Positions 5,828-37,192 of a DNA stretch of 37,331 bases are shown here, piece by piece. Under the pieces are notes generated by a model. That model had not been told where the DNA came from and made no database searches. It saw nothing but the letters and a program-made list of their open reading frames with translations. The stretch is from Balneolaceae bacterium (GTDB taxonomy: Bacteria > Bacteroidota > Rhodothermia > Balneolales > Balneolaceae): contig SKRC01000215.1 of the NCBI GenBank assembly GCA_007118695.1, positions 1-37,331 of the forward strand. Direction: 5' to 3'. The stretch's first letter is position 1. Every line of letters starts with the position of its first letter. Both the position numbers and the translations under genes were made by a program.

Positions 5828-5926
5828 ATAGACATGAGACTATATATATGGAGTTTACATCAATACAATGCAGTTGAGGTTTTCAAAGCATCCTGCATAA
5901 ATTCATAATTTAAAAATTATTATGAT

Positions 5927-17432: not shown

Positions 17433-18023
17433 ATGTCGTTTACCCGCCTTGATTTTCTTAAGTTAGTTACCGCTGCAGGTGCAGGCAGTACGTTTCCGCT
17501 GAAAGACATTGTCCAATACCGCCGGATATCAAAACGTAACAGTGATCGACCCGTGATAATCGCTTCAAGAAATGGATTACGCGGAGTTGAAGTGGCCTAT
17601 AACATGATAACGGAAGACGGATCTGATCCTTTGGATGCGGCCATTGAAGGTGTCAAGATCCAGGAACTGGATCCTGAGGACCATAGTGTAGGTATTGGGG
17701 GGCTTCCCAACGAGGAGGGAGTTGTCCAACTGGATGCATCTTGTATGCACGGTCCAACCAAAAGAGCCGGTTCGGTAGCAGCTCTTGAAGATATTGCCAC
17801 CCCATCCATGGTGGCAAAGGCCATTATGGAATATACCGACCATATTATGCTGGTTGGCCCGGACGCAAAACGTTTTGCCCTGAACCTGGGATTTAAAGAG
17901 GAAAAACTGCTGACCGAACAGAGCAGACAAATGTGGCTGAGATGGAGATCCAGATTGAATCCGCACGATAACTGGCTGGAACCGATCGCCTGGATGTACC
18001 GGTACGATCAGCGCCCGGATTAA
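17433..18023 (+). pseudogene. truncated glycosylasparaginase (N4-(beta-GlcNAc)-L-asparaginase), catalytic half missing
   Basis: Residues 1-196 match the alpha-subunit part of glycosylasparaginases, N-terminal-nucleophile hydrolases that free GlcNAc from Asn in N-glycoproteins. Recognisable pieces are an N-terminal signal-like segment (TRLDFLKLVTAAGAG, Tat-like with a single Arg), ASRNGLRGVEVAYNM, HSVGIGGLPNEEG, LDASCMHGP and the late SRLNPHDNW. The frame then stops after YRYDQRPD. The catalytic Thr motif (GT or DTIG) and the whole beta subunit, about 130-150 residues, are absent. Only about 205 bases separate the stop from the next gene, too little for the missing half, so this is a deletion and not a frameshift. 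It should be inactive. A regulatory or dominant fragment is the unlikely alternative. Confidence 0.8.
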
Positions 18024-19749: not shown

Positions 19750-20148
19750 TTTTCAGTTATTTCATTTCCGTCCCTTTATAACACGATCACTTCTATTTTG
19801 AGACAGTGGAATCGGGTATGTTTATAAGTGCATGGACAATGATAAATATCGTTGATCAAAACGGGCCAATCACCAGGCCCCGGCCGGAGTGAGAGTCGAT
19901 CAACCGACTCAATTCCTGCTAATCAATCATTTTCATCTTATTAAAACACCTTTGAATCGGTACACCCGGTCGGGGTGGCGTGTCATAATAAATGCTTCAA
20001 TAACAATTTTGGGATACACTTCAATAAGTTGTTAAACTTCTTTACTCTTCGGGATAAACTCCTTGAAGAAATTAAATTTTGCCGGTGAAGGTTGTTTTTT
20101 TTGCCTCCCATTTCATATTTACATGATCAAATGCTTTACACACATAAG
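19750..20148. other. gene-free leader region with inverted repeats
   Basis: About 400 bases without a gene. It contains GAGTCG-ATCAAC-CGACTC (19893-19910, perfect 6-bp stem) and CACCC-GGTCG-GGGTG (about 19963-19977). Either could terminate the upstream gene or serve in a leader. The T-tract TTTTTTTT just before 20103 is within the preceding frame and does not follow a hairpin. Confidence 0.35.
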
Positions 20149-23100
20149 ATGAAATTACGTATAGGAATGAATGTAAAAGCGGTTTTGACTCTGGCCGGGC
20201 TGGTCGTAATCGGCTTAAGTCTGCTCCAGTGTACCCCATCTGACCCGGATGTTATCGGGCTGCAGGAGGATGCAAGTATCGTTCTGATTGGCAATAACCT
20301 GGGCTCAAGAATGATGTACTTTGGTCAATTTGAAACTGAAATGCACCTGCGCTATCCGGATTATTCGCTTTTGATTCGCAACCAGAGCATTCCGGGTGAT
20401 ACGCCCGGCTTCAGGCCCCATTCATCGCGTGATAATCCCTGGGCATTTCACGGGGCGGAAGCCTTTCAAACCGAGCTTGCCACAAATTCGGGAAGCCAAG
20501 GCCATTTTCCCTCCCCGGATGAATGGATTGCCAAATTTGCCCCGGACGTGATCATCGCCTTTTTCGGGTATAATGAATCGTTCCAGGGAGAAGAGGGGCT
20601 GGAAAACTACAAAGCGGAACTGGATGCATTCATCCGGCATACGCAAAGCCAAAATTACAAAGAGAATTCCTCATCTGAGCAACTGGCAGATTCACCCACG
20701 CAGCTTGTCCTTGTATCGCCTATTGCCTTTGAGGATCTGTCTGATACGTATGATCTACCGGACGGCACCCGGGTAAATGCAAATCTGGAACTCTACATGG
20801 AGGCTATGCGGGAGGTTGCTGCCAACCATAATGTTCGTTTTGTGGACGCTTTTTCGCCAACCAAAGAGTGGTTTGATGCCGGCGAAGGGCCGCTGACCAT
20901 TGACGGCTCACAGCTGAACGACGACGGCTATGAACGTTTTGGGAAGCTGCTTGCCGACGAGATTTTTGGCCGTACAGAGACCATGGCAGAGGAACACCGC
21001 GAGCTGGTCCGCGCCGCCGTGCTCGACAAAAACTGGATGTGGCATCAGGATTACAAAATCCCGAATGGCGTTCACGCCTACGGCCGGCGCTTTGAGCCTT
21101 TCGGGCCGGATAACTACCCGTATGAGATTGAGAAAATCCGCCAGATGACCGAAATCCGTGACCGGGCCATTTGGCAGGCAACTCGCGGGCAGGTCAAGGA
21201 TGTGGTTGCGGCCGATGAGCAGGAAACCAGGGAGCTTCCGCCGGTTGAATCCAACTTTGATCCTGAAAGACATGGAAATCCCGAATACCTGTACGGACAG
21301 GATGCACTTGACAAACTTTCTGTCCCCCCCGGTTACAAGATCGAACTCTTCGCATCGGAAGAAGATTTTGCAGACATGGCCAACCCGGTTCAAATAACGT
21401 TTGACAACAAAGGCCGGCTCTGGGTGGCGACCCTGCCGAGTTACCCGCATTACAAACCCGGTGATACGCGGCCTGACGACAAACTCATCATTCTGGAAGA
21501 TACCACCGGCGATGGCAGGGCAGACAAGCAAACCACATTTGCCGATGGGCTGCATCTGCCCCTTGGGTTTGAATTCGCCCCGGGAGGCGGAGTTTACGTC
21601 TCACAGGGCCCCGACCTTGTGCTTTTGACCGATACGACGGGAAATGATCAGGCCGACACCAAAGAGATTGTTATTAGCGGCTTTGATGACCACGACACCC
21701 ATCACGCCCATAGCACCTATACCGTGGATCCTTCGGGCGCTATCTATATGGCCGAAGGGGTGTTCCTGCATACCAATGTGGAGACTTCCTACGGGCCGGT
21801 CCGGGCGACCAACGGGGGTTTTTATCGATTCAATCCGCAGCGGCGGCACCTTGAACGCACCGCCCAGCTGTCGATACCCAATCCGTGGGGAATTGCCTTT
21901 GACAAGTGGGGGCAAAATTTCTTTGCCGAAACCTCCGGCCCGGATGTCCTCTGGATGATGCCCGGAACTGTCAAGCCCCGGTATGGTGTAGCCACTCCCA
22001 AATCCAGGAACCTGATAGAGGATGAGCACCGGGTACGGCCAACCTCTGGCCTGGAATTTGTTTCGAGCCGCCATTTTCCGGACGAAGTGCAGGGAGATTT
22101 TCTGATCAGTAATACGATCGGGTTTCTGGGTACCAAGCAGCATACGCTGGAGGATGACGGCACCGGGTACAGGAGTCGTCACCGCCAGGACCTGGTGCGT
22201 GGGGATGATCCGAACTTTCGCCCTGTGGATATGGAATTTGCCCCGGATGGCTCTCTTTATATTGTGGACTGGCATAATGTTCTGATTGGCCATATGCAGC
22301 ATAATGCCCGTGACCCGCTGCGAGATCATGTGCACGGGCGGATCTATCGCATTACCTATCCCTCACGGCCATTGGTTGAACCGGCCAACATTGACGGGGC
22401 TTCTATCGGGGAATTACTCGATAACCTGAAACTGCACGAATACCGCTCGCGAGACCGTTCACGCCGTGAACTGCGGGGCCGGGATGCCCCGGAGGTCCTT
22501 TCCCATATCGAAAGATGGGTTGAAAACCTCGATGAGTCCGATGAAAATTATGAACACCATAAGCTGGAAGCCTTATGGGTAAGCTGGGGACTCAATCAGG
22601 TGGATGAATCCCTGCTGCGCCGGCTGCTCGGGGCGGATGATTTCCGGGTACGGGCCGCTGTAGCACGTGTGTTGCGGTACACGGGGCATCAGATAGCCGA
22701 CCAGGTGGAGCTGCTGACACGGGCAGCCGCGGATGACCATGGACGTGTCCGTCTGGAAGCGATTGTCGCGGCCTCCTGGCTGGATATGGAAGATGGCTTG
22801 GCCATATTAAACGAAGCTGCCAATCATCCGATCGACGACTGGATGGCGGATTCCTATGAAACGGCCATGGCACATTTGGTTGGAGAGGCCCCGGAAGATG
22901 AAATCGCTGAGGAAGTCGAAACCCATCTGGCCGGTGACGATCTGGAGCTGTATAACAAAGGCAGGGACATCTATTTGCGGGATGGATACTGCGGGACTTG
23001 TCATCAGCCCGACGGGCAGGGCCTGACTGCAGCCGGTTTTCCGCCCCTGGCCGGAACACGGTGGGTTACAGGCAGCGAGGAACGCCTCATCAAACTGACC

Positions 23101-23352
23101 TTGCATGGTATGTCCGGCCCGATGGAAGTTCTTGGCGTGCAATACCCTGGGAATGTCCCTATGACGCCCTTCCGGGGCCTGCTCAATGATGAAGAGATGG
23201 CTGCGGTGCTGACGTACGTGAGAAATGCCTTTGGCAATGAAGCCTCAGCCATTTCTCCGGAGAAAGTCCGGGAAGTCCGGGAATCTACCGGTGACCAGCG
23301 CGGTTTCTATTCAGCCGAAGAGTTACTGGGAGAGTATCCGCTTGAGGAGTGA
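20149..23352 (+). CDS. four-domain membrane-bound dehydrogenase lipoprotein: GDSL/SGNH, beta-propeller, HEAT, cytochrome c
   Basis: A 1067-residue exported fusion. I start at ATG 20149, giving a lipoprotein signal with SLLQC (Cys28); upstream in-frame starts exist at 20131 (ATG) and 20092 (TTG). Domain 1 (about 35-285) is SGNH hydrolase-like, with IGNNLGSR and FFGYNES. Domain 2 (about 375-740) is a PQQ-dehydrogenase/sorbosone dehydrogenase-like propeller (PPGYKIELFASEEDF, FDNKGRLWVATLPSYP, FAPDGSLYIVDW). Domain 3 (about 755-920) is helical and HEAT-like. Domain 4 is cytochrome c with CGTCH (948-952) and a likely axial Met near 1005 (VPMTPF). Such proteins pass electrons from sugar or sugar-lactone oxidation to the respiratory chain. 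It heads the oxidative cassette. The substrate is unknown. Confidence 0.85.
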   Translation: MKLRIGMNVKAVLTLAGLVVIGLSLLQCTPSDPDVIGLQEDASIVLIGNNLGSRMMYFGQFETEMHLRYPDYSLLIRNQSIPGDTPGFRPHSSRDNPWAFHGAEAFQTELATNSGSQGHFPSPDEWIAKFAPDVIIAFFGYNESFQGEEGLENYKAELDAFIRHTQSQNYKENSSSEQLADSPTQLVLVSPIAFEDLSDTYDLPDGTRVNANLELYMEAMREVAANHNVRFVDAFSPTKEWFDAGEGPLTIDGSQLNDDGYERFGKLLADEIFGRTETMAEEHRELVRAAVLDKNWMWHQDYKIPNGVHAYGRRFEPFGPDNYPYEIEKIRQMTEIRDRAIWQATRGQVKDVVAADEQETRELPPVESNFDPERHGNPEYLYGQDALDKLSVPPGYKIELFASEEDFADMANPVQITFDNKGRLWVATLPSYPHYKPGDTRPDDKLIILEDTTGDGRADKQTTFADGLHLPLGFEFAPGGGVYVSQGPDLVLLTDTTGNDQADTKEIVISGFDDHDTHHAHSTYTVDPSGAIYMAEGVFLHTNVETSYGPVRATNGGFYRFNPQRRHLERTAQLSIPNPWGIAFDKWGQNFFAETSGPDVLWMMPGTVKPRYGVATPKSRNLIEDEHRVRPTSGLEFVSSRHFPDEVQGDFLISNTIGFLGTKQHTLEDDGTGYRSRHRQDLVRGDDPNFRPVDMEFAPDGSLYIVDWHNVLIGHMQHNARDPLRDHVHGRIYRITYPSRPLVEPANIDGASIGELLDNLKLHEYRSRDRSRRELRGRDAPEVLSHIERWVENLDESDENYEHHKLEALWVSWGLNQVDESLLRRLLGADDFRVRAAVARVLRYTGHQIADQVELLTRAAADDHGRVRLEAIVAASWLDMEDGLAILNEAANHPIDDWMADSYETAMAHLVGEAPEDEIAEEVETHLAGDDLELYNKGRDIYLRDGYCGTCHQPDGQGLTAAGFPPLAGTRWVTGSEERLIKLTLHGMSGPMEVLGVQYPGNVPMTPFRGLLNDEEMAAVLTYVRNAFGNEASAISPEKVREVRESTGDQRGFYSAEELLGEYPLEE

Positions 23353-23458: not shown

Positions 23459-24949
23459 ATGACTTATTATATTAACAGTGAGTTAAACGGCAAAAAAAAG
23501 GTGCAATCATCCAAATACACTCCGGATCAATTTCAATTTGAGATGATTCGCAGTGAGCTGGAGGAGGTTGTCGGCCAGAAGCATATAACGACAGAGGGGC
23601 CGGCAAAGCTTGTCTATTCGAACGACTGGTCATGGATGCCACAAATGTGGCTGGACCGGGGCCAGCCGCTAAAGACTCCCGATTATATTGTCCATCCAGG
23701 TACGCCTGAGCAGGTGGCGGCCATCATGAAGATTGCCAATACCTATAAGATTCCTGTGATCCCCTGGGGCGGTGGTTCAGGTACTCAGGGAGGGGCACTG
23801 TCGATTTTTGGGGGTATTATCATGGATGTTAAGCGGATGAACCGCATTCTTGAAATCGATGAGCAGTCGATGTCGGTGACTGCCGAGGCAGGCATCAACG
23901 GCAGCCAGCTGGAGATGCGGCTCAACGAGAAGGGCCTGACCCTGCCGCACTATCCGGCCTCGGCCAACTGCGCAACACTGGGTGGCTACCTGGCCCCGCG
24001 GGGTACCGGGACGATCAGCACCAAGTATGGCAAGAGCGAAGACCTGGTCATGAGCATGGAGGTGGTCCTGCCGGACGGGTCGATCATCGAGACACCCCGG
24101 GTGCCAGACCATGCTTCGGGGCCGGATTATATGGGATTATTTTTGGGCTCAGAGGGGGTTTTCGGGACGATTACCAAAGCAACCATGCAGGTGGATTACC
24201 TGCCCGAGACCCGTCTGTTCCGGGCACTGCTCTTCGATGATTTGACCGCAGCCATTGAAGCCGGCCGCAGGCTGATGGTCAGACGGCTGGACCCGACGGT
24301 CATCCGGCTCTATGACCCCGGATCCACGGCCTCGCGCGTCAAGGATATATTGGGCTATAAGCTGGAAGGCGCCTATATGGTGGTCGGCTTTGACGGGGAT
24401 AAGGACATCGCCGCCCTGCAGGAGAAAAAGGCCATGGACATTTTTAAAGAACTGGGAGCAAAAGACCTTGGCCGCGAGCCGGGTGAGAAATGGTGGGATC
24501 ACCGCTATGACTTTTACTACCCGCCGACCAATTTGAAACTACCCTGGATGTACGGGACGGCCGATACGGTAATGCGCTACAAGGATGTGGAAAAAGTCTA
24601 TTATGCCCAAAAAAAAGCTGTCGAGCAGACCTACGGCGACTGGAATGTGAAGTTTATCGGCCACTTTTCCCACTGGTTTCATTGGGGAGCGGCCATGTAT
24701 ACCCGCTTTATCATCGAAAATCCGCCGGAAGATGCGCGTGATGCCCTGCGGCTGCATAACCGGGTCTGGAATACGGCGATAACTGCCTCGCTGGACAACG
24801 GGGGAACGATCAACGAACATCACGGGATCGGGTTGAAACTGGGCCGCTATATGCGACGCCAATACGGAGAGGCATTCGATTTGCTGGAAAATATCAAAGG
24901 CGCCATCGACCCGAATGGAATCATGAATCCCGGCAAAGTTGGGTTTTAA
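23459..24949 (+). CDS. FAD-linked oxidase (GlcD/D-lactate dehydrogenase-like, VAO family)
   Basis: A 496-residue cytoplasmic flavoprotein. The PCMH-type FAD-binding domain (about 65-245) shows PWGGGSGTQGGALSIFGG, the pyrophosphate-binding loop, plus GGYLAPRGTGTISTKYGKSED and GSEGVFGTITKATM. The C-terminal oxidase domain ends NEHHGIGLKLG and IKGAIDPNGIMNPGK, matching GlcD, D-lactate dehydrogenase and alkyl-DHAP synthase relatives. It would oxidise a 2-hydroxy acid to the 2-keto acid. The iron-sulfur protein starting 100 bases downstream is the probable electron acceptor, as in GlcDEF. The DNA is GC-rich compared with the left part of the window. No Shine-Dalgarno precedes the start. Confidence 0.88.
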   Translation: MTYYINSELNGKKKVQSSKYTPDQFQFEMIRSELEEVVGQKHITTEGPAKLVYSNDWSWMPQMWLDRGQPLKTPDYIVHPGTPEQVAAIMKIANTYKIPVIPWGGGSGTQGGALSIFGGIIMDVKRMNRILEIDEQSMSVTAEAGINGSQLEMRLNEKGLTLPHYPASANCATLGGYLAPRGTGTISTKYGKSEDLVMSMEVVLPDGSIIETPRVPDHASGPDYMGLFLGSEGVFGTITKATMQVDYLPETRLFRALLFDDLTAAIEAGRRLMVRRLDPTVIRLYDPGSTASRVKDILGYKLEGAYMVVGFDGDKDIAALQEKKAMDIFKELGAKDLGREPGEKWWDHRYDFYYPPTNLKLPWMYGTADTVMRYKDVEKVYYAQKKAVEQTYGDWNVKFIGHFSHWFHWGAAMYTRFIIENPPEDARDALRLHNRVWNTAITASLDNGGTINEHHGIGLKLGRYMRRQYGEAFDLLENIKGAIDPNGIMNPGKVGF

Positions 24950-25049: not shown

Positions 25050-26144
25050 ATGACTCAAACCAACGCTCTGGATACAACTGAAAACTGCCGGTATTGCCTG
25101 ATGTGCAGGCATCTATGCCCGGTAGGTAACTTGACCCATAACGAGGCACTTTCACCTCATGGATGGGCTCAGATGGTGGCCTCGGAGCGGCGCGGGCTGT
25201 TGGAGTGGAATGAGCAGTCCATTGACGCATTGTACAAATGCGCCGACTGCGGGCAGTGTGAGTCTCATTGTGTGACCGACCAGCCGCTTCCAAATGCAAT
25301 TGCAGCAGCTCGCACGCTTTTGGTTGAAAACGGTAAAGCACCGGAGGAGGTCAAACAATTGGCTGAAATGCTAACGGCTTCATCCAATCTGTATAACGGA
25401 CAAGTCTCCCAACCACCTTCAGGCAAGGGAGATATTGCACTTTTTATAGGTGATGAAGCCGACCATTTTGCCCCGGGTGCAGTAGAAGCTGTTCTCAAAC
25501 TATTAAAAAATACAGGGATTGAGCCGGTACTCATTGGCCGTGGCAGAAATGACGGTTTGATTCCAAGTGGTTTAGGGCTACGATCAAAGTCCATTGAATT
25601 GGCCAACGCTACCATCGAAGATCTTGAATCAACCGGGGCAACTACGCTGCTGGTGCTTTCGCCCGGAGCTTTTTTTACGTTTACACGAATTTATCCAGAG
25701 CGGCTTAACATTGAGCTAGACCCGAAGGTGGAAGTAGTTGAGGTGACCTCGCTGCTGGCCGATAAGATGGAGTCAGGGGACATGAGTGTGAACAAAACCT
25801 CGCTTACAGATAAGTTTGCCTATATGGACCCGGAACACTCGGTGCGGGTACCATCTCGATTTGCGGCACCTAGAACATTGATGGATACTGCTTTTGAGGG
25901 CGAGCGGGTTGAGCTTTTTTGGCGCAAGGAGCGTTCCGGGTCAGGTGGTGCAACAGGATTGCAGTTCACCCACAAGGATATGGCAGATGACCTGACCAGG
26001 TTTCGACTGGCCGGAGCAGGCGAGGCCGGAGTGAAGACAGTGTTTACGGAAGACTCAGCTACGTTCGGGCGCTTGAATCAGTTTGCCGGGCACAATGGCA
26101 TAGAGGTTCGCAACCTTTATCAATCCCTGGCCGGCCAACTATAA
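25050..26144 (+). CDS. two-cluster ferredoxin-type iron-sulfur protein, GlcF-like, with cysteine-free C-terminal half
   Basis: A 364-residue protein. The N terminus has two complete 4Fe-4S motifs: Cys13/16/19/23 (CRYCLMCRHLCP) and Cys64/67/70/74 (CADCGQCESHC). This is the GlcF/HdrD-type electron-transfer module that partners GlcD-like flavoproteins. The C-terminal half keeps the layout of a CCG domain: AYMDPEHSVRV stands where YHDPC is expected, and GSGGATG where CCG.GG is expected. It contains no Cys after residue 74, so it cannot carry the usual CCG-domain cluster. It probably relays electrons from the FAD oxidase to the quinone pool. It sits 100 bases after that gene. Confidence 0.85.
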   Translation: MTQTNALDTTENCRYCLMCRHLCPVGNLTHNEALSPHGWAQMVASERRGLLEWNEQSIDALYKCADCGQCESHCVTDQPLPNAIAAARTLLVENGKAPEEVKQLAEMLTASSNLYNGQVSQPPSGKGDIALFIGDEADHFAPGAVEAVLKLLKNTGIEPVLIGRGRNDGLIPSGLGLRSKSIELANATIEDLESTGATTLLVLSPGAFFTFTRIYPERLNIELDPKVEVVEVTSLLADKMESGDMSVNKTSLTDKFAYMDPEHSVRVPSRFAAPRTLMDTAFEGERVELFWRKERSGSGGATGLQFTHKDMADDLTRFRLAGAGEAGVKTVFTEDSATFGRLNQFAGHNGIEVRNLYQSLAGQL

Positions 26145-26320
26145 GGGGTGAGAAGTCAAAACAGTGGGCTGAAAACGCCGACCAATAGAATGAGTAAAAG
26201 TTAGCTTTGCCTGCCAGGAGTCAGGATCACGACTCTGCACATTGAGGTGTACTCCTGGTATAAAATTAGTTAAACAGTTTACATACACGTAATAATCATA
26301 ATAGTAAACAAAATGATAAC

Positions 26321-26327
26321 GAGGTAA
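26321..26327 (+). promoter_or_regulatory. Shine-Dalgarno GAGGTAA before the creatininase-family gene
   Basis: GAGGTAA ends 6 bases before the ATG at 26334, one of the few strong ribosome sites in the window. It fixes the start. Just upstream (about 26277-26309), GTTTAC and GTAAAC form a 6-bp dyad 21 bases apart, a weak operator candidate. Confidence 0.5.
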
Positions 26328-26333
26328 TACGAA

Positions 26334-27260
26334 ATGACTTACGAAAACGAACGAGGAGCCAAAGATATCGAACCCATTACCAGTGGGGATGAGAAGTTCA
26401 GAAAGAAGTTTGTCTCCTGGCAGCTCGCCCATCTGACTGTCACCGACATTAAAGAATATTTGAAAGAAAAAGATACCGTTTTGGTCCCCATTGCCAGTAC
26501 CGAGCAGCACGGCCCCCATCTGCCCTTGTGGACAGACACGGTAACAGCCCTGGAGATTTCCCACCGCGTTGCACATAAAATCGGGGTCCTTTACGCCCCG
26601 GCAATCTGGACAGGATATTCTCCCCAGCACATGCATGAGGCTGGCCAGGGCCGCGGAACGATCACCGTCCGCAGCACGACACTGTTAAATCTGATGTATG
26701 ATGTGGCACGCAGCCTGATTCACCACGGATTTAACCGCATTATATTTATCAACGGCCATGGCTCGAACATCAAGGTGGTCGATCCGATCCTGCGCAAACT
26801 GCGTTATGAAACCGGGGCGCTTATCAGTTTCGTCAAGCCGTATATGGAGAACTATGTGGGATTGATGGAAGGGCTGCTTGACAACCCGCCGGAAGAGACC
26901 CCGGGCTGGCATGCCTCGGAGCTGGAGACTTCCCAGGATCTGGCCTGGAATGAAAAGTACGTGCGAATGGAACGCGCCGAGTTTACCAAGGCGCACATCC
27001 CGGAGTTCCTGCCCAAGTCGTTCGAGAAAAAAGACGGCATGCCGGATGTAGAGTTTGACGGGTACAAGTATTTCAATTTCCCGATGGATCATCACGAATT
27101 CATAGAAAGTGGTGTGATAGGCAACCCGACGCGGGCGACCAAGGAAAAAGGTGAAGAAGCCTTTCGCCGGTATTCCGACCATGTGGCCCGGGGCATCCTG
27201 GAACTGATGAAAATCGATGTTGAAGTCAAAAACCGGGAGTTTACTGACCGGGCCTTTTAG
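26334..27260 (+). CDS. creatininase-family metal-dependent amidohydrolase/lactonase-like enzyme
   Basis: A 308-residue cytoplasmic protein of the creatininase superfamily. Metal ligands are visible: STEQHGPHLPLWTD supplies Glu57, His59 and Asp68; FINGHGSN supplies the later His; and GWHASELETS supplies the late Glu. Family members open cyclic amides such as creatinine or deformylate riboflavin/F420 precursors. No creatine or cofactor genes are nearby, and the sugar-oxidation neighbours suggest opening a cyclic sugar product such as a lactone, by inference only. The extended N terminus (about 45 residues before the first strand) is hydrophilic. The start is supported by GAGGTAA. Gap to the next gene: about 325 bases. 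Confidence 0.85.
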   Translation: MTYENERGAKDIEPITSGDEKFRKKFVSWQLAHLTVTDIKEYLKEKDTVLVPIASTEQHGPHLPLWTDTVTALEISHRVAHKIGVLYAPAIWTGYSPQHMHEAGQGRGTITVRSTTLLNLMYDVARSLIHHGFNRIIFINGHGSNIKVVDPILRKLRYETGALISFVKPYMENYVGLMEGLLDNPPEETPGWHASELETSQDLAWNEKYVRMERAEFTKAHIPEFLPKSFEKKDGMPDVEFDGYKYFNFPMDHHEFIESGVIGNPTRATKEKGEEAFRRYSDHVARGILELMKIDVEVKNREFTDRAF

Positions 27261-27359
27261 GCGAAGGGCATTGCCCGTGGAGGTTGGAAGAGCAGGGAAA
27301 CTTTTAAGAGTATGAATCCGCCCTATTCAGATGCTCTGTATTGCATCATAGATCAATGT

Positions 27360-27383
27360 ATAAGCTCCGGGCCCAGGGCTTAT
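27360..27383 (+). terminator. 24-base imperfect palindrome, possible terminator
   Basis: Arms ATAAGC and GCTTAT flank a GGGCCC centre, with two imperfect pairs between. It is GC-rich in the middle and is followed by CCTATTATTTTT, a late T-run. It probably ends the creatininase-family transcript, or is an operator of the next gene. Confidence 0.42.
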
Positions 27384-27405
27384 CCTATTATTTTTAAATG
27401 ACTAT

Positions 27406-27428
27406 CCGGTTTTTGTAACAAAAGCCGG
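27406..27428 (+). terminator. hairpin CCGGTTTTTG-TAA-CAAAAGCCGG
   Basis: A 10-bp stem with one G-T wobble and a 3-base loop, symmetric enough to act on both strands. No T-run follows on the + strand. It is an alternative terminator or regulator-binding dyad upstream of the Tm-1-like gene. Confidence 0.42.
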
Positions 27429-27584
27429 TTGGCAAAATTTTGCAGGCAGTGAATCCAACAGCAGACAGTTAGGTGGCTTTTCGTATGCCGATATTTATTG
27501 CATTCGGCTACAAAGTTAGAGAAAACGGATACTCATTTATTTTTAAATAACAGGAAAACCGAAACTCAAACACATACCGACTCC

Positions 27585-28838
27585 ATGTCAAAAAACGTAC
27601 TTGTTGTCGGCACCCTTGATACAAAGGGTCCCGAATTTGCCTACCTTCGTGACCGCTTAAACGAGCTGGGCGTGAACACGACGGTCGTTGATATCGGGAT
27701 TCTTGACGAGCCCCTGGAAATCGAACCCGATATCGGCCACGAAGAAGTTGCCAAAACCGGTGGTACTACAATTGAGACCTTACAACAAGCCGGCAGCCGC
27801 GGCAAAGCTGTCGAGGGTATGCGAAAGGCGATCCGTATCTTGACGCGCAAACTTTATAATGAAGGAAAAGTTGACGGAATCATCAGCATGGGTGGCGCCG
27901 AAGGGGCGGTAATGGGGGCGGCGGCCATGATGCAGCTCCCGGTTGGTGTACCAAAGATTTTGATTTCACCTATTGCCTCGGGCAAACACTATTTTGATCC
28001 GCTGGTGGGAACAAGCGATGTCATGATAATACATTCGGTGGTCGATATTCTTGGGTTGAACCCGATTGCCTGCACGGTTTTCGATAATGCGGCTGCGGCC
28101 ATGAAAGGGATGATCGAACATGGAAACCTGCTGCCCGACCCGGATCCCGGCCAGCGATACGTAGCCGTGACCATGCTCGGCAATACGACCCGGGCTGTGA
28201 TGGCTATGAAAAATCGCCTGGCAACGTCGGGATACGAAGCGGTCATTTTCCATTCGAACGGTGTTGGTGGGCCGGCCATGGAAGAGTTGGCCGGGATGGG
28301 CCAGTTTGTGGGTGTGATTGATTATACCACCAATGAGGTCAATGATCCACTTGTCGGTGGTATTCATGATGCGGGCCCGGAACGGCTCAAACGGATCGGG
28401 TTGTTGGGCCTTCCTCAAGTGGTCGTGCCGGGCTGTATCGATTTCAGTGTATTCCATACCGGAGCGGTCCCCTCGCAGCTGCAGGGCCGGCCTGTCTATG
28501 ACCACAACCCGGAGTATACTCTGGTGCGGACCTCTCCCGGGGAGATGAAACAACTCGGCCGGATTTTTGCCGAGCGCCTTGGTCAGGCGAAAGCCCCGGT
28601 CCGGATCATGGTTCCGACAGGAGGATTGTCGATACCGAACCATCCCGACGGAGGCGTGTTTTGGGATCCGGCCTCTGACGCCGGGTTTTTGGAAAGCTTA
28701 CGCAAGGAGCTTGGCCGCAGCCGGCCCGATATCCCGATCAAAACCTATCAGTACCATGTCAACGATCCTGCCTTTGGAGAACTTGTGGCCGATGAGTTTA
28801 TCCGGCTTATGGACAACGAGGCCGGTTATGAACATTGA
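27585..28838 (+). CDS. Tm-1-like ATP-binding protein (UPF0261 family)
   Basis: A 417-residue cytoplasmic protein. It starts at ATG 27585, giving the family N terminus MSKNVLVVGTLDTKGPEFAYL; a TTG at 27498 would add 29 odd residues. Family blocks are clear: SMGGAEGAVMGAAAM, ISPIASGKHYFDPLVGTSDVMIIHSVVDILGLN, FHSNGVGGPAMEEL, VPGCIDFSVFH, and MVPTGGLSIPNHPDGGVFWDP. The plant homologue Tm-1 N-terminal domain binds ATP; the bacterial role is not established. Proteins of this family often sit with TIM-barrel partners in sugar or carboxylic-acid clusters. Here it lies between the creatininase-family and ThuA genes, which implies a catabolic role for an acid intermediate. It is GC-rich like its neighbours. 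Confidence 0.88.
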   Translation: MSKNVLVVGTLDTKGPEFAYLRDRLNELGVNTTVVDIGILDEPLEIEPDIGHEEVAKTGGTTIETLQQAGSRGKAVEGMRKAIRILTRKLYNEGKVDGIISMGGAEGAVMGAAAMMQLPVGVPKILISPIASGKHYFDPLVGTSDVMIIHSVVDILGLNPIACTVFDNAAAAMKGMIEHGNLLPDPDPGQRYVAVTMLGNTTRAVMAMKNRLATSGYEAVIFHSNGVGGPAMEELAGMGQFVGVIDYTTNEVNDPLVGGIHDAGPERLKRIGLLGLPQVVVPGCIDFSVFHTGAVPSQLQGRPVYDHNPEYTLVRTSPGEMKQLGRIFAERLGQAKAPVRIMVPTGGLSIPNHPDGGVFWDPASDAGFLESLRKELGRSRPDIPIKTYQYHVNDPAFGELVADEFIRLMDNEAGYEH

Positions 28839-29014: not shown

Positions 29015-30046
29015 ATGAAAAACCACATCCTTTCTATTGCAACATTCCTGTCGGTTCTTTTGCTCTGCTTGTCCTGGCAGGCTCAAACGGCGCATGGCCA
29101 AGAAGGCGATCTGTGGATCACCTTTGAACCTGGCGAAGGGCCGGGCAACGGCCACCATATCGTACTGGTCAGCGGCGATGAGGAATACCGCTCTGAAGAG
29201 ACCCTGCCGATGCTGGCAAAAATATTATCCACTCATCACGGGTTTAAAACGACGGTCTTGTTTGCCATCGATCCGGAAACCGGATATATCGACCCGGATA
29301 ACCAGACAAATATTCCGGGCATGAAGAATCTACAGCAGGCAGATCTGATGATCTTGTTTACGCGGTTCAGGGAACTGCCGGACGAAGATATGGCCTATGT
29401 CGAGGAGTACCTGTTGGCCGGCAAGCCGGTCATCGGATTGCGGACGGCCACCCACGCTTTTTATTATCAGCGCAATCCCGATAGCCCATATGCCGGCTAT
29501 GACTGGAGAAGTGATGTGCCGGGATGGGAAGATGGATTTGGCCGGCAAATTCTGGGTGAAACCTGGGTCGATCACCATGGGATTCATTTTGAGGAGGGCA
29601 CACGGGGTTTGGTTAACGGTATCCCGGAGCGGAATGATCATCCGGTTCTGCGCGGGGTAAGCGATCTATGGGGTCCGACGGATGTTTATGGAACCCGGGA
29701 ACTGGAAGGCAATGTGGAGGTGCTGGTCTGGGGGCAGTCGACTCTTGGACTGAGCCAGGATGCGCCGGTCAACTGGGAGAAATCGATTATGCCTATAGCC
29801 TGGACCAAAGACTATCGCATCGAAGGTGGGTCCACGGGCAAGACATTTACCAGTACGATGGCCTCATCGGTCGATTTTGAAAGTGAAGATTTGCGCCGGC
29901 TGATTGTCAATGCCAGCTACTGGTTACTGGAGATGGGGGACCAGGTATCGGACAAGAGCAATGTAGATATTGTAGGCGATTATGAGCCTACCATGTTCGG
30001 TTTTGGTGAATTTCGCCAGGGGATGACACCGTCAGATTATAAATAA
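29015..30046 (+). CDS. exported ThuA-domain protein
   Basis: A 343-residue protein with a Sec signal (about 1-29, ending near AHGQ) followed by a ThuA domain, a class I glutamine amidotransferase-like fold. Typical blocks are GHHIVLVSGDEEYRSEETLPMLAKIL, ADLMILFTRFRELPDEDM, GLRTATHAFYY, WVDHHG and PIAWTKDYRIEGGSTGKTF. ThuA proteins take part in trehalose/sucrose use through 3-keto-sugar intermediates in Agrobacterium/Sinorhizobium and are widespread beside Gfo/Idh/MocA and TIM-barrel genes in Bacteroidota and Planctomycetes. A periplasmic role in handling an oxidised sugar fits the upstream dehydrogenase. The exact reaction is not known from sequence. No Shine-Dalgarno is present; the ATG follows CAACACC. 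Confidence 0.87.
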   Translation: MKNHILSIATFLSVLLLCLSWQAQTAHGQEGDLWITFEPGEGPGNGHHIVLVSGDEEYRSEETLPMLAKILSTHHGFKTTVLFAIDPETGYIDPDNQTNIPGMKNLQQADLMILFTRFRELPDEDMAYVEEYLLAGKPVIGLRTATHAFYYQRNPDSPYAGYDWRSDVPGWEDGFGRQILGETWVDHHGIHFEEGTRGLVNGIPERNDHPVLRGVSDLWGPTDVYGTRELEGNVEVLVWGQSTLGLSQDAPVNWEKSIMPIAWTKDYRIEGGSTGKTFTSTMASSVDFESEDLRRLIVNASYWLLEMGDQVSDKSNVDIVGDYEPTMFGFGEFRQGMTPSDYK

Positions 30047-30713: not shown

Positions 30714-31595
30714 ATGAAGATCTCACGAAGAAATGCACTTGCAAAATTAGGAGCACTGGCAGGGTCAACGGCCGCTTTAGGCCTGGCTAATCCATTTAAA
30801 ATGCCGGAAAAGCGAATAGAAACATTGGATTTAAAGGGGAGAATTAACCATTCGGTTTGCAGATGGCCATATAATAATGTCTCTTTGGAGGATTTGTGCC
30901 GTGCTTCTGTAGAAATCGGAATAAAATCGGTAGAAATTGTAGGTCCGGAAGACTGGCCGGTTTTAAAAGAATACGGTTTGAGCTGTGCCATGCCCAGAGC
31001 AGGAGATATTGGTTTGGAAAGAGGATTCAGTGATCCAAAATATCATGATGAACTGGAAGCAAGTTTCAAAGAGTCGATTCCGAAAGTCGCGGAAGCGGGT
31101 CACGATATTGTGATTCTGTTTTCCGGAAACAGGGATGGAATGGATGATGAAACCGGATTGAGAAACTGTGAGGAAGGCATCAAACGTATTATAAGTACTG
31201 CTGAAAGACATAATGTTACGTTATGTTTGGAACCTCTGAACAGCAAGCGGAATCATCCGGATTATTTTGTAGATAACACACCGCTGGGAGTTGAACTGTG
31301 TGACCGGATCGGATCAGACAGATTCAAACTACTGTATGATATTTATCACATGCAGATCATGGAAGGGGACGTGATCCAGACCATTCGGGATTATCATGAA
31401 TATATTGCTCACTATCATACCGGTGGTGTACCGGGCCGGAATGAATTGGATGAGTCGCAGGAACTGTATTGGCCGGCCATCATGGAAGCTATCGTTGAAA
31501 CCGGGTATGATGGGTATGTCGGCCAGGAATTTGTTCCGACCTGGGATGATCCTATTGAAGCTCTGAGACACGGTGTGGAAGTTTGTGACGTGTAA
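30714..31595 (+). CDS. Tat-exported hydroxypyruvate isomerase-like TIM-barrel enzyme
   Basis: A 293-residue sugar-isomerase/epimerase-fold protein with a twin-arginine signal at the N terminus (SRRNALAKLG and a hydrophobic stretch). The barrel matches hydroxypyruvate isomerases: INHSVCRWPYNNVSLEDLCR, CLEPLNSKRNHPDYFVDNT, LLYDIYHMQIMEGDVI and HYHTGGVPGRNELDES, with Glu, Asp, His and Glu metal residues visible. The family interconverts hydroxypyruvate and tartronate semialdehyde, but many exported relatives act on larger keto-sugars, and the Tat signal argues for a periplasmic substrate. It is AT-rich compared with the cassette before it. The D-2-hydroxyacid dehydrogenase 280 bases downstream could use its product. 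Confidence 0.84.
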   Translation: MKISRRNALAKLGALAGSTAALGLANPFKMPEKRIETLDLKGRINHSVCRWPYNNVSLEDLCRASVEIGIKSVEIVGPEDWPVLKEYGLSCAMPRAGDIGLERGFSDPKYHDELEASFKESIPKVAEAGHDIVILFSGNRDGMDDETGLRNCEEGIKRIISTAERHNVTLCLEPLNSKRNHPDYFVDNTPLGVELCDRIGSDRFKLLYDIYHMQIMEGDVIQTIRDYHEYIAHYHTGGVPGRNELDESQELYWPAIMEAIVETGYDGYVGQEFVPTWDDPIEALRHGVEVCDV

Positions 31596-31681
31596 AAACA
31601 TTTTGCATATAGCAATAAGTGTTTTACTTGTTAATTTTCTGCATTGTCGCTTATTTCTGCAATAACCATATTGTTATTGTG

Positions 31682-31696
31682 TAAATCGATTCCAAT
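31682..31696 (+). promoter_or_regulatory. candidate operator TAAATCGATTCCAAT (copy 2)
   Basis: Identical to 17174-17188; here it is preceded by TG and lies about 180 bases before the dehydrogenase start. The core AATCGATT is palindromic and suits a LacI-type regulator. Evidence is weak. Confidence 0.2.
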
Positions 31697-31875
31697 GTGA
31701 ATCATGTCGTTCTGCCTGGTTTTGCTATAGTGGTGATTACAAACTAAGTGAGGACATCCTTTATGACAATTGCAGAAGGGCGTTCATCCAGAAACCTTGC
31801 ATGCCGGGGTCCATATGCAAAACACTATGCTTTTTTTATACAGCCAATTAATGAAGTAAATTGATCCATCCATCC

Positions 31876-32814
31876 ATGAACATCGTTTTTCTGGACTTTA
31901 AAACAATCGGGAAGGTTCCGAATGAAAACATTCTAGATTCGCTGGGTGATGTAACCATGTATCAGACAACCGGCCCGGATCAGACGGCGGAGCGGATCAA
32001 AGGTGCAGATATCGTCATCACAAATAAAGTGGTGCTCGACAAGGATTTAATCAGGCAAGCCGAACAGTTGAAGCTGATCTGCGTAGCCGCTACCGGGATG
32101 AATAACATTGATCTGTCTGCTGCCGAAGAAAAGGGAATTCCGGTCAAAAATGTTGAAGATTACGCTTCAAAAAGTGTCGCCCAGGGGACGTTCGCGCTCA
32201 TCCTGCACCTGCTGTATAACATCCCGTTCTATGATGAGTATGTAAAAAGCGGTGAATATTCCGGAAGTGATATTTTTACAAACGTCGACAGGCAGTACCG
32301 TGAGATCAGCGGAAAAAGATTTGGCATCATCGGCCTGGGTAATATCGGGAGCCAGGTTGCCCGGATTGCCGATGCGTTCGGGGCGGAGGTGGTGTACTAT
32401 TCCACATCGGGCAGAAACACCGATCAGCCCTGGCAGAGACTGGAATTAGAGGAGTTCCTGCAGACTTCGGATATCATCTCCATTCACGCTCCCCTCAACG
32501 AGAATACAGCCAACCTGATTGATTATAAACGCCTGAAGCTCATGAAGCCCTCGGCGCTTCTGATCAATACCGGAAGAGGGGGCATCGTCAATGAAACCGA
32601 CCTGGCCCGGGCGCTGGATGAGGATGTGATCGCCGGGGCAGCAGTTGATGTGTTCGAACAGGAACCGATTGACCGGCAGAACCCGCTGATGGAGGTGAAA
32701 AAGAAAGAGAAGCTGATTCTCACTCCCCACATGACCTGGGCCAGTATTGAGGCGCGCACTTCGCTGATGGAAGGGGTCAGGCAGAATATTGAGCAGTTTT
32801 TGAGGGATGATTGA
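31876..32814 (+). CDS. D-2-hydroxyacid dehydrogenase (glycerate dehydrogenase/hydroxypyruvate reductase-like)
   Basis: A 312-residue cytoplasmic NAD(P)-dependent enzyme. It starts at ATG 31876 (MNIVFLDFKTIG); a TTG at 31861 is also in frame. The Rossmann motif GIIGLGNIGSQVA is followed by the substrate/catalytic set: Arg in INTGRGGIVNE, Glu in VDVFEQEP and His in LTPHMTWAS. ATGMNNIDLSAAEEKGI is typical of the family and closest in style to glycerate dehydrogenase. It would reduce hydroxypyruvate to glycerate or a related 2-keto acid, feeding central metabolism. It closes the + strand cassette; the next genes face it. Confidence 0.9.
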   Translation: MNIVFLDFKTIGKVPNENILDSLGDVTMYQTTGPDQTAERIKGADIVITNKVVLDKDLIRQAEQLKLICVAATGMNNIDLSAAEEKGIPVKNVEDYASKSVAQGTFALILHLLYNIPFYDEYVKSGEYSGSDIFTNVDRQYREISGKRFGIIGLGNIGSQVARIADAFGAEVVYYSTSGRNTDQPWQRLELEEFLQTSDIISIHAPLNENTANLIDYKRLKLMKPSALLINTGRGGIVNETDLARALDEDVIAGAAVDVFEQEPIDRQNPLMEVKKKEKLILTPHMTWASIEARTSLMEGVRQNIEQFLRDD

Positions 32815-33072
32815 TAAACTAATTTTATCAGCCGAGAGGCCTGTTGCACCGGCAGTTTATTCACACTGCAGCAGTGGCCGGGTTTGCCGCTGTCAGACCG
32901 CGATCAGCGGTTGGGGAACCCGCTGTGAAATCAAACAGAAAATCGATGAACATTATCAATAGAGTTGAAATCGGATTCATTGCACCTTATACCTTCACTG
33001 GACTGAGCCGGGACGCAGCAGAGTTACCTGGGTTTGGACAAAGACGGTACCTAGCGCATTTTTTCATTCAGT

Positions 33073-33969
33073 TTATTGCATTTCCGGCCAAAAATCCCGC
33101 ATTTTAGTGCGCAAAAATTCCACACTGCGTTCAAGCTGATCCATGCCCTCCACGCCATCTTCAATACTGATCCAGCCGTCGAAGCCCACCCGTTTCAGTT
33201 CAGTGAAGATTGCATCGTAATCATTGAGACCCCGGCCGATCTCTCCGTGTGCAAGTCGTTTTGCATAACCTTTCGAGCCACTTTCCTCACGGCGAAGGTC
33301 CTCAAGGGTTCCTTCTTTCAGGTAGCGGTCACTTGCATGCATGGTGAGAACCCGGTCTGACACGCGGCGAAGCAATTCCAAAGGGTCTTCACCTGCCAGC
33401 CAGGTGTTACTCGGATCATAATTGACGCCGAAAGATGGATGATCGATGTTATCAACAAGCTTGCAGAACAGATCCATTTTATGGGCAAATTCAGGATACT
33501 CCCAGAAATCGTCCTTATAATGGTTTTCAAGGATCAGTGATATCCCCCGTTTCTGTGCATAGGGCAGACAGGCTTCAATACATTCCGTGGCAAGTTTGAT
33601 TCCCTGTTCCATTGACAGCCCGGGCCTGGCCTGCCCTGAAAGGACACGGCAATAGCTGCCGCCCAATGCCTGGGTCATATCAATACATCTTTTCTGCCTG
33701 GTGATCTCATTTTTACGATACGATGCATCGGGATGGGTGAAATCTGGTGAGCAGCACATCATCGGAATTTCCTTTCCATGCCCCGAAACCTGTCGGCGAA
33801 ATTTTGTCCAATTGCTTTCGTCCTCCATTTCCAGGAATCCCGCATACCATTCCAGCCCATCCACATCGAGTTGCACAGCAAGCTCGATCCATTGCGAAAG
33901 GGTCATACTTCCATCGCTGCACAGAGCCTGCATAAACGCTTTCGGGAAAACAGCTAATTTTGGGGCCAT
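33073..33969 (-). CDS. sugar phosphate isomerase/epimerase-type TIM barrel
   Basis: A 298-residue protein of the AP-endonuclease-2/xylose-isomerase-like TIM-barrel family. I start it at ATG 33969 (MAPKLAVFPKAFM), which avoids overlap with the upstream SDR gene; a start at 34035 would overlap by 41 bases. Metal-site residues appear in ILENHYKDDF (Glu), GVNYDPSNT (Asp), TMHASDRY (His) and ISIEDGVEG (Glu), the expected strand positions. There is no export signal, unlike the similar-fold gene at 30714, so it probably works in the cytoplasm on a later intermediate. It follows the SDR gene by 25 bases on the same strand. Confidence 0.85.
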   Translation of the reverse strand: MAPKLAVFPKAFMQALCSDGSMTLSQWIELAVQLDVDGLEWYAGFLEMEDESNWTKFRRQVSGHGKEIPMMCCSPDFTHPDASYRKNEITRQKRCIDMTQALGGSYCRVLSGQARPGLSMEQGIKLATECIEACLPYAQKRGISLILENHYKDDFWEYPEFAHKMDLFCKLVDNIDHPSFGVNYDPSNTWLAGEDPLELLRRVSDRVLTMHASDRYLKEGTLEDLRREESGSKGYAKRLAHGEIGRGLNDYDAIFTELKRVGFDGWISIEDGVEGMDQLERSVEFLRTKMRDFWPEMQ

Positions 33970-33994
33970 AACCGGATCTGCAAATATATTAGGA

Positions 33995-34807
33995 TTAACG
34001 TTTGTTTTTAGATGCCCTGGACATTGTTTCAACATCTTTAGGCAGGTTGCGTCCTATAAACGGATGCTGCTCCAGGTCCATAACCTGGCCGCTGACGGGC
34101 CCGCATTCATCAGAAAGCCAATAGATGGCAGCGGCAGCAATCTCTTCCGGCTGCAGGATACGGCCCGAGGGTGCAAATTCGGGAGGAATATCTTTGTACC
34201 AGTCATCCGGCAGACCCTGTTCATTTTTGCGAAGGGCTTCGTTTTCTGTCAGCACCCACCCTGGATTGATCTGATTGACGCGTACCCCGTCCTCGCGATG
34301 GAGTGTGTCGCCAAGATTTCGTGTCATGGTCATAAGTGCACCTTTCGACACACTGTAACTGAACAGACCGGGTTCGCCGCACCAGGCATTTACCGATCCG
34401 ATATTCAACACACAACCACGGGTGTTGCGAAGGTGGGGAAGGGCGGCTTTGATCAGTGCAAACGGTGCAAGGGTGTTAACGTCAAGCATCCTGCGGAAAA
34501 ATGGCAGATCGGTTGTTTGGAGATTTGACGATTTCACCATCGCCGCATTGTTTACGATAGCATCAAGCCTGCCGAAAGCATCTGTTGCCGCCTCCACAAG
34601 ATGTTCCGGAGCGTTCTCTGCCGTGATATCCTCTATGTGCAGTACAGTTTTTGCCTTGCCAAGATTAGCCACGACAGATTCACCCAAATCTTTTTCCAGC
34701 CCGTGAATCACCACGCGGGCACCTTCCTCCACACAACGTTCGGCGATGGCTTTACCGATTCCGGTACAACTACCTGTAACGATGATGACCTTATTTTTGA
34801 GTCTCAT
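33995..34807 (-). CDS. SDR-family oxidoreductase
   Basis: A 270-residue short-chain dehydrogenase. The start at 34807 (MRLKNKVIIVTG) matches the family; a start at 34891 would add 28 residues. TGSCTGIG (11-18) binds the cofactor, NNAA follows, and the catalytic set is Ser in NIGSVNAW with YSVSK. The loop ENEALRKNEQGLPDDWYKDIPP is long and polar, as in sugar-alcohol or keto-acid dehydrogenases. The C-terminal tail (ASKNKR) is basic. KduD-like 2-keto-3-deoxygluconate dehydrogenation is possible given the lyases upstream but is not shown by the sequence. It is the first gene of a two-gene unit with the TIM-barrel gene. Confidence 0.88.
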   Translation of the reverse strand: MRLKNKVIIVTGSCTGIGKAIAERCVEEGARVVIHGLEKDLGESVVANLGKAKTVLHIEDITAENAPEHLVEAATDAFGRLDAIVNNAAMVKSSNLQTTDLPFFRRMLDVNTLAPFALIKAALPHLRNTRGCVLNIGSVNAWCGEPGLFSYSVSKGALMTMTRNLGDTLHREDGVRVNQINPGWVLTENEALRKNEQGLPDDWYKDIPPEFAPSGRILQPEEIAAAAIYWLSDECGPVSGQVMDLEQHPFIGRNLPKDVETMSRASKNKR

Positions 34808-34973
34808 GGTTAAATGAAGTTCCTGGTCTAGGGATTTAAAACCCCAATAAAGTCGTGAAACGGTTTGGTGTTTCTGCGGCCGGGCTATCAACTTAAAAAT
34901 TTAGCAAGAAACCTGAACTGGTCCGCAGGCTCATCTTTTGCACGCGAAGCGAAACACTTGATGTACACCCGGT

Positions 34974-35210
34974 CTAAAGTTTATCGAATTCTTCCGGTTC
35001 CGTGTCCGGTACCTTTTCCAACAACTCTTCAAAGGTTTTGCGATCGCCTTTTTGAGCTCTTTCCTTCAGGTAGTCTACGGTTAAAAGGGTAGAGACTTTT
35101 TCGGTGATCGCAAGTGTGATAAACTGATTCATCGATACACCTTCCTTGTCGGCCATCTCTTTCAGGCGCTTATGAAGAGATTTGGGAAGTCGTACGCTTA
35201 ATGTGCTCAT
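34974..35210 (-). CDS. ribbon-helix-helix antitoxin
   Basis: A 78-residue protein. MSTLSVRLPKSLHKRLKEMA is the DNA-binding beta strand plus first helix of an RHH repressor, and EGVSMNQFITLAITEKV is the second helix, HicB/CopG-like. The acidic tail (ELLEKVPDTEPEEFDKL) is probably the part that wraps the PIN toxin. Its ATG is one base after the toxin stop (TGA-T-ATG). A strong Shine-Dalgarno lies inside the end of the toxin gene. It would neutralise the toxin and, with it, repress the palindromic promoter upstream of the toxin. Confidence 0.85.
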   Translation of the reverse strand: MSTLSVRLPKSLHKRLKEMADKEGVSMNQFITLAITEKVSTLLTVDYLKERAQKGDRKTFEELLEKVPDTEPEEFDKL

Positions 35211-35211
35211 A

Positions 35212-35637
35212 TCAGATCACCTCTATAGCTTTTAAAAATTCTTGTGCTGTTACAACCTGGATTCCAAATTGGTTAACGCCAGAGAAATCACGGGTGTTGT
35301 ATGTGATGATGTGTTGGCAATTTGCCCGTACTGCCAGATCCAAAATCATGTCATCTTTGGGATCGTTCAGGATTGGTCGCCACAAAAAATGTACTTCATG
35401 CAAATTGGCGACTCGGCAAATATAATCCAGAATTTGTCCAATTTCTTTATCAGTAAAGTTTAACGATGGTTGTTTTCTGAGTAATACCTCCTCGTATTCT
35501 AAAACAAGAGGCACAGACAGATTGATTTCAAATTTTCCTGAATTCAGATGATTCAAGAGCTTGTATGAGGCACCTCGTTTTGATCGAAGTCCGGCATAAA
35601 GCACGTTGGTGTCCAGGACGATTTGAATCGGTTTCAT
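35212..35637 (-). CDS. PIN-domain toxin (putative ribonuclease)
   Basis: A 141-residue PIN-domain protein of the group annotated as TA-system toxin. The acidic active-site residues are visible: Asp in VLDTNVLYAG, Glu in VLEYEEVL, Asp in DPKDDMILDLA, and the late TYNTRDF. Such toxins cut RNA in an Mg-dependent way. The toxin gene precedes its antitoxin, the reverse of the usual order, and its start codon sits at the predicted transcription start. Chromosomal PIN/RHH pairs often travel horizontally, which fits its insertion between two sugar-dehydrogenase units. Confidence 0.88.
   Translation of the reverse strand: MKPIQIVLDTNVLYAGLRSKRGASYKLLNHLNSGKFEINLSVPLVLEYEEVLLRKQPSLNFTDKEIGQILDYICRVANLHEVHFLWRPILNDPKDDMILDLAVRANCQHIITYNTRDFSGVNQFGIQVVTAQEFLKAIEVI
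35218..35224 (-). promoter_or_regulatory. Shine-Dalgarno AGAGGTG for the antitoxin
   Basis: AGAGGTG lies inside the toxin's last codons and ends 7 bases before the antitoxin ATG. It is the best ribosome site in this part of the window and contrasts with the toxin, which has none. Confidence 0.6.
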
Positions 35638-35950
35638 GTATGGTATTATATATCATACCAATATGAAATGCAAGGGGAGTGATTCAATAGTGTGTATAAC
35701 CATTATTCTCCGAATGACGGAAAATACTTGACAAAAACATATTGTACGGAGCTGTTCTCGAGCCCGCCGGTCGGGGTGCCGATAAAACCCATACGGTTAG
35801 GAATTTTAGTCAAAATAAGAAATCCTGTCGATTTCAATGTCGGGGTTAAAGTAATCAAAGCAGAGGTTCAAAATGTTTCTTGGTACTGTTTTCATAATCA
35901 ATACCGGAGGAATTAAATATGAAAAAGTTCGGGCGAATCCCGGTTCTATT
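35638..35950. other. gap between the MDR gene and the TA operon
   Basis: Apart from the TA promoter, the 313 bases hold no clear gene. Frames on both strands stay open (35692-35916 on +; a tail MGFIGTPTGG...SFGE on the minus strand, 35703-35792), which looks like a decayed gene or a repeat with coding-like character. No family is recognised. Confidence 0.4.
35641..35673 (-). promoter_or_regulatory. sigma70-type promoter with overlapping palindromic operator for the TA operon
   Basis: On the minus strand TTGCAT (35668-35673) is followed after exactly 17 bases by TATAAT (35645-35650). The -10 is embedded in TGGTATTATATATCATACCA (35641-35660), a palindrome matching at 9 of 10 arm positions, as expected for RHH autorepression. 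The predicted transcription start (about 35637-35639) coincides with the toxin ATG. Confidence 0.7.
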
Positions 35951-36976: not shown

Positions 36977-37192
36977 AGGCAGATTTTTTGGTGGATATTG
37001 TTTCAGGAATTTTTCGGACAGAATAAACGGAATATCAAACTTCATGAAAGGTAATTTGTTTAACCTGTCAGATCTATTTTTACATGAGTTATGTATTAGT
37101 GAAATAATAAGTGAAATTAATCGTAGATCACAAGCTTAATTCATTGTAGTTCAGTTAATTACGTTCTGATATTCTCCTGAATAAAATGATTG

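Follow-up and report, generated by a model that had tools for sequence, protein, structure and literature searches.

Genes at the locus

The window, that is, the whole stretch of 37,331 nucleotides analysed here, contains a creatininase-fold gene beside a gene for a UPF0261 (Tm-1-like) protein (Table 1). Both open reading frames were found at the coordinates and on the strand first stated for them, and their domains agree with the original prediction: the product of the former exceeds the Pfam gathering cut-off for PF02633 (31.3 bits) by far, and the open frame 27498–28838 scores 181 bits against PF06792 and 224 bits against PF23189. Judged from an alignment and the sequence, the UPF0261 gene is more likely to start at the ATG at 27585 than at the TTG at 27498. 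Pfam matches also bear out the predicted layout, with a gene carrying FAD_binding_4 and FAD-oxidase_C domains and one for a two-[4Fe-4S] protein on one side and ThuA on the other. The GDSL/DUF7133/cytochrome c gene stops 106 bp before the FAD gene. As had been predicted, neither creatine nor mycofactocin genes occur among the window genes with a Pfam or NCBIfam match.

Table 1. Genes of the operon and its surroundings in the window
Feature	Position	Strand	Evidence and proposed place
GDSL + DUF7133 (sorbosone-dehydrogenase-like propeller) + HEAT + cytochrome c protein, likely exported	20092..23352	+	Pfam; associated, not core
FAD dehydrogenase, GlcD/D-2-hydroxyacid dehydrogenase/ADPS-like, VAO fold	23459..24949	+	Pfam, PDB comparison; operon core
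Fe-S electron-transfer subunit	25050..26144	+	Pfam, sequence; two CxxCxxCxxxC motifs, C-terminal CCG motif absent
Creatininase-fold (PF02633) metal-dependent hydrolase, uncharacterised subfamily	26334..27260	+	PF02633, 207 bits; ring-opening step proposed
UPF0261 (Tm-1-like) protein, creatininase-partnered clade	27585..28838	+	PF06792 and PF23189; ATP-using partner enzyme proposed
ThuA-family protein, accessory	29015..30046	+	Pfam

Elsewhere in the window, consecutive sulfatase, PL8 chondroitinase-like and heparinase II/III-like genes (3819–10889) form an upstream locus for a glycosaminoglycan or similar sulfated polysaccharide. The Asparaginase_2 match of a 196-aa open reading frame (17433–18023) spans model positions 23–155 of 309, approximately the first half, and the frame is probably truncated or frameshifted. 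Further IolM/IolO-like hits at 30714–37045, a Zn alcohol dehydrogenase and TIM barrels, score far below the cut-offs, and no link between them and the operon was found.

Conservation of the operon

Public genomes were scanned with an alignment of the creatininase-like protein alone, so that the resulting set of loci was not conditioned on UPF0261. The scan gave 105 relatives, 80 of which were retained, from Chloroflexota, Actinomycetota, Rhodothermota, Deinococcota, Poribacteria, Gemmatimonadota and Planctomycetota. Neighbours were clustered over the 78 loci with a called creatininase-like gene, the window among them; these are not evolutionarily independent counts, although they span at least seven phyla. 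The adjacency noted in the original prediction is not unique to this genome: in 70 of the 78 loci a UPF0261 gene lies on the same strand less than 400 bp from the creatininase-like gene, the two genes overlapping by 4 bp in 29, and the exceptions are mostly contig ends or cases where a small open reading frame was called in between.

The conserved order is FAD dehydrogenase, Fe-S subunit, IolO-like TIM-barrel epimerase, UPF0261 and creatininase-like protein, and across the 78 loci the neighbours comprise UPF0261 (75), the FAD gene (64), the TIM barrel (AP_endonuc_2, 58) and the Fe-S gene (37). An extended cluster adds a Gfo/Idh/MocA dehydrogenase related to levoglucosan and inositol dehydrogenases (29 loci), a GntR/FCD regulator (29), a second, IolE-like TIM barrel (24) and Liv-type transport genes (16–19), and ABC transporters, xylose isomerase/xylulokinase or LarA are found near some operons. 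ThuA adjoins the operon in six loci, all from Rhodothermota. In the same class as the window but another family, six genomes encode a creatininase-like protein of 74–77% identity, each within a tight run of FAD, Fe-S, UPF0261 and creatininase-like genes. This conservation makes the FAD and Fe-S genes part of the unit rather than the unrelated neighbours they had been taken for, and an IolO-like epimerase normally belongs to it too. The association between the creatininase-like protein and UPF0261 is thus real and functional, as the original prediction implied, but the unit is larger than the pair. Literature searches on the gene pair yielded no paper.

The window departs from this pattern in several ways. 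Among the loci compared, it alone has the creatininase-like gene before UPF0261, with wider gaps of 189 bp and 324 bp flanking the former. Its operon has no TIM-barrel epimerase, and no remnant of one was recognisable in the gaps 26145–26333 and 27261–27584. On another contig of the same genome, a relative of the epimerase, 59% identical to the barrel of the nearest operon, is surrounded by genes for a glyoxalase, a Gfo/Idh protein, an enolase-superfamily protein and a 2-hydroxyacid dehydrogenase. Close orthologues of the extended cluster's Gfo/Idh and IolE-like genes were not found in this genome, nor was one of the creatininase-like protein in the sampled relatives of the window's own family. 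The unusual order and gaps and the missing orthologues could be read as a coincidental adjacency in this genome, but such a coincidence is next to impossible given the co-oriented neighbours in the 70 loci, the 29 overlaps and the single clade formed by the UPF0261 partners, and chance was rejected on the 78 loci. A second, short creatininase-fold gene (L057, 9386–10147, on G000:C293) represents a type often found in this order (GATEAHNYHLPYATD, NGHGGN) and has no recognisable operon partners beside it.

The creatininase-fold protein

Score, fold and metal motif place the window protein in the PF02633 creatininase superfamily. Its best NCBIfam match is creatininase (TIGR04448, 126 bits, cut-off 235), the second-best whole-protein match is MftE (TIGR03964, 106 bits, cut-off 172), and IolN (NF041098) scores 104 bits (cut-off 245). 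In a PF02633 tree whose deep joins are uncertain and carry long branches, the operon proteins form one clade (100/100) that is separate from IolN (100/100) and other PF02633 proteins and is not sister to IolN. The AlphaFold model is fair, with weak loops (pLDDT 82.6), and the nearest solved folds are creatininase (Foldseek E 1e-14) and its putative relatives 3lub and 3no4.

The creatininase ligands had been called complete, which holds for E57, H59, D68, H142, H193 and E198 but not for the second-metal ligand Glu122 of creatininase (NGHYEN), replaced by Ser144 (NGHGSN) in the window protein and in all operon members displayed in the alignment; most relatives have Gly or other residues at this position. 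Across the 41 rows of the alignment, six residues (E57, H59, H142, H193, E196 and E198) do not vary and D68 hardly does. Like creatininase (1q3k/3a6j), with which it shares the fold, the protein has the E-H-D-H metal motif (E57/H59/D68/H142) and, in H193, an equivalent of His178; unlike creatininase, it combines the serine with surroundings devoid of creatine genes. In an otherwise typical operon member (L085, 10001–10927), a Tyr replaces the metal ligand D68 (PIYTYTITC), which is a sequencing error or marks an inactive copy. Four loci (L036, L037, L040, L041) have PF02633 within open frames of 760–800 aa, as fusions with another domain.

With its score below the cut-off, the replaced Glu122 and the lack of creatine genes, the window protein is in all likelihood not a creatininase, in line with the original prediction. 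MftE, which has the PF02633 family in common with it, was rejected on score and because the window has no mycofactocin genes, and an IolN orthologue on score and the separate clade. The fold does have a settled role in the use of sugars or cyclitols, contrary to what had been supposed: IolN (NF041098) is the creatininase-fold enzyme of Thermotoga inositol catabolism and hydrolyses a C–C bond of 3-dehydro-scyllo-inosose.

The epimerase and the inositol genes of host genomes

The operon TIM barrel is a member of the ketose 3-epimerase group, with TM_0416 as the closest structure solved. Two copies match IolO best (142 and 153 bits, cut-off 300), with D-psicose 3-epimerase scoring nearly as high; for the copy in the window's genome, D-psicose 3-epimerase is slightly above IolO. 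IolO of T. maritima is a 5-keto-L-gluconate 4-epimerase (PMC12632266). A search with the IolN model recovered true IolN (~310 bits) from 4 of 46 host genomes, apart from the operon studied here and, in the loci checked, next to true IolM and IolO. The trio of dehydrogenase, creatininase-fold hydrolase and IolO-type epimerase therefore occurs twice in such genomes.

Two types of UPF0261 operon

The window UPF0261 protein has both Pfam domains and the Tm-1 fold of its family, and its AlphaFold model is good (pLDDT 92), with tomato Tm-1 (3wry, TM ~0.75) and Saro_1862 (9mpy) as the nearest solved structures. In plant Tm-1, an antiviral protein, UPF0261 is fused to a PF09370 barrel. UPF0261 proteins encoded beside a creatininase-like gene group in one clade (99/97), and proteins partnered with PF09370 in the other (99/97 without the distant L205 row), the sole apparent exception being L134, where both operons touch. 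Both types occur together in nine loci, from Chloroflexota as far as the records name them, in the order, with variations, UPF0261, PF09370, usually a cupin or glyoxalase, TIM barrel, Gfo/Idh, FAD, Fe-S, epimerase, UPF0261 and creatininase-like gene.

The window's genome encodes both types on separate contigs. No PF09370 gene was found adjacent to the window UPF0261, which is thus not a member of that pair; contig C102 (L199: 6512–10943) has a second UPF0261 with PF09370, cupin and ThuA-DUF7133-cupredoxin genes. Two unrelated open reading frames, one nucleotidyltransferase-like, interrupt the C102 cluster. Each of the seven PF09370-type clusters examined from the window's phylum encodes a multidomain protein with DUF7133, in most cases together with ThuA and cupredoxin domains; one cluster adds a 3-keto-disaccharide hydrolase, a GMC oxidoreductase and gluconate 2-dehydrogenase subunit 3. 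Together with the DUF7133-cytochrome c gene upstream of the window FAD gene, this DUF7133/ThuA context points to oxidised sugars.

No report of an enzyme activity of UPF0261 was found in the literature consulted for this protein family. Acetovanillone, in 9mpy (Saro_1862), is the only ligand in the title of a UPF0261 structure among the structure matches. Acetovanillone catabolism in N. aromaticivorans is reported to start with a single-component kinase, MarK (PMC13101465), which is likely to be Saro_1862 since organism, ligand and year are the same. By analogy with 9mpy and the MarK report, a role of UPF0261 as a small-molecule kinase appears likely. UPF0261 with PF09370 was ruled out as an HpeHI/AcvAB two-component kinase because HpeHI is another type, a PEP-synthase/rifampin-phosphotransferase-type dikinase (PMC12167813).

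Proposed pathway and alternatives

The operon, widely shared among bacteria and uncharacterised, probably opens an oxidised ring sugar or cyclitol, as far as its genes tell; most likely it serves to open the ring of a cyclic polyol or keto-sugar oxidatively, by reaction types that we infer. The fuller reading that we favour, catabolism of an oxidised cyclic polyol or keto-sugar of the cyclitol or 3-keto-pyranose type, is tentative and has somewhat under an even chance of being correct. From gene content, conservation, subfamily separation and active-site residues, which are observed, we infer the reactions, their order and the substrate class as follows. The FAD/Fe-S dehydrogenase would make a dicarbonyl intermediate, with electrons passing through the Fe-S subunit, and the metal-dependent creatininase-fold enzyme would hydrolyse the ring, most likely at a C–C bond in the manner of IolN and otherwise at a lactone. 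The IolO-like epimerase, encoded elsewhere in this genome, would correct the stereochemistry of the open-chain keto-acid, and UPF0261 would act with ATP on a carbonyl/enol intermediate, probably as a kinase.

Ring opening is suggested by the conservation of the operon in at least seven phyla, the two IolO-matching barrels with TM_0416 as nearest structure, the true IolM-IolN-IolO trio in some host genomes, the Gfo/Idh/MocA (29 loci) and IolE-like (24 loci) members of the extended cluster, and the GntR/FCD, ABC transporter, xylose isomerase/xylulokinase or LarA genes nearby. The invariant or nearly invariant metal-site residues, the company of the other UPF0261 type (ThuA, DUF7133 and, in one locus, sugar-oxidation genes) and the acetovanillone bound in the Saro_1862 crystal point the same way. 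Against it stand the distance to IolN in both tree and score (104 vs 245 bits), the merely family-level similarity of the epimerase to IolO, with D-psicose 3-epimerase close or better, the fact that no gene of the operon fixes the substrate, and, in this genome, the lack of Gfo/Idh and IolE-like orthologues and the different neighbours of the epimerase relative. In a further, quite unlikely variant, the FAD/Fe-S enzyme produces a cyclic dicarbonyl whose enol, a vinylogous acid comparable to a hydroxyphenyl ketone, is phosphorylated by UPF0261 as a kinase before the creatininase-fold protein opens the ring; if true, it would show the ancestral chemistry of the Tm-1 family, the plant antiviral protein included.

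The main rival, somewhat unlikely in our view, dispenses with C–C cleavage: the FAD/Fe-S enzyme would oxidise a sugar or 3-keto-sugar to a lactone, the creatininase-fold protein would be a metal-dependent lactonase and the epimerase would act on the sugar acid. Sugar-lactone oxidases do occur in the fold family of the FAD protein, genes typical of oxidative sugar pathways (SMP30 lactonase, FAA hydrolase, SDR) are neighbours in some loci, and the ThuA/DUF7133 context within the window's phylum would fit; however, the best matches of the FAD protein are ADPS, D-lactate and glycolate types rather than lactone oxidases, and the precedent for the fold is the C–C hydrolase IolN, whereas we know of no characterised creatininase-fold lactonase. 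It is decidedly unlikely that the operon instead degrades lignin-derived aromatic ketones, with UPF0261 as a phenolic kinase like Saro_1862 and the creatininase-fold protein cleaving a later intermediate. The acetovanillone in 9mpy, the MarK-initiated pathway and molybdenum hydroxylase genes near a few Chloroflexota loci favour this route, but the enzymes that recur beside the operon are dehydrogenases and epimerases of sugar type, Acv/Hpe biotin carboxylase or phosphatase genes were not recognised among the recurrent neighbours, and the UPF0261 clade of the operon is far from Saro_1862.

Very doubtful, finally, is an amide-type hydrolase (creatininase, formamide or peptide hydrolase) acting on a nitrogen compound. 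In Actinomycetota the operon lies next to ABC transporters of the Liv type, whose cargo is often amino acids or amides, and both the ranking of the NCBIfam matches (creatininase, then MftE) and the nearest folds would agree with it. Yet both curated cut-offs are missed, Glu122 of creatininase is not conserved, the companions are sugar-type enzymes, and creatinase, mycofactocin and flavin/deazaflavin biosynthesis genes were not recognised among the recurrent neighbours.

For the ring-opening reading, the findings suggest that this use of the creatininase fold may extend beyond inositol. Across at least seven phyla, several of which include culturable members, the operon gives two orphan subfamilies a defined set of partners, and its company is the first genomic clue to the role of one UPF0261 branch. 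The existence of two old types of UPF0261 operon is also relevant to the function of the ancestor of plant Tm-1.

Comparison with known systems

Saro_1862 (9mpy) matches UPF0261 over its whole length (315-bit profile match) but sits on a distant branch and in an aromatic context, as opposed to the sugar context of the operon. With Tm-1 and the UPF0261-PF09370 pair, the window protein shares the full-length fold, core motifs and ~32% identity to Tm-1, whereas it belongs to a separate clade and the partners in its operon type are a creatininase-fold protein and an IolO-like barrel. The IolM-IolN-IolO system has a Zn alcohol dehydrogenase where the studied operon has an FAD/Fe-S dehydrogenase; the operon adds UPF0261, and both shared members score well below the IolN and IolO cut-offs. 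Analogues, not equivalogs, of IolM (FAD/Fe-S) and IolO (TIM barrel, 58/78) are present in most operon loci, with the epimerase off the contig here. By analogy, the operon nevertheless resembles the logic of the inositol operon, combining a dehydrogenase, a creatininase-fold hydrolase and an IolO-type TIM barrel in one operon, with the same fold for two of the three steps.
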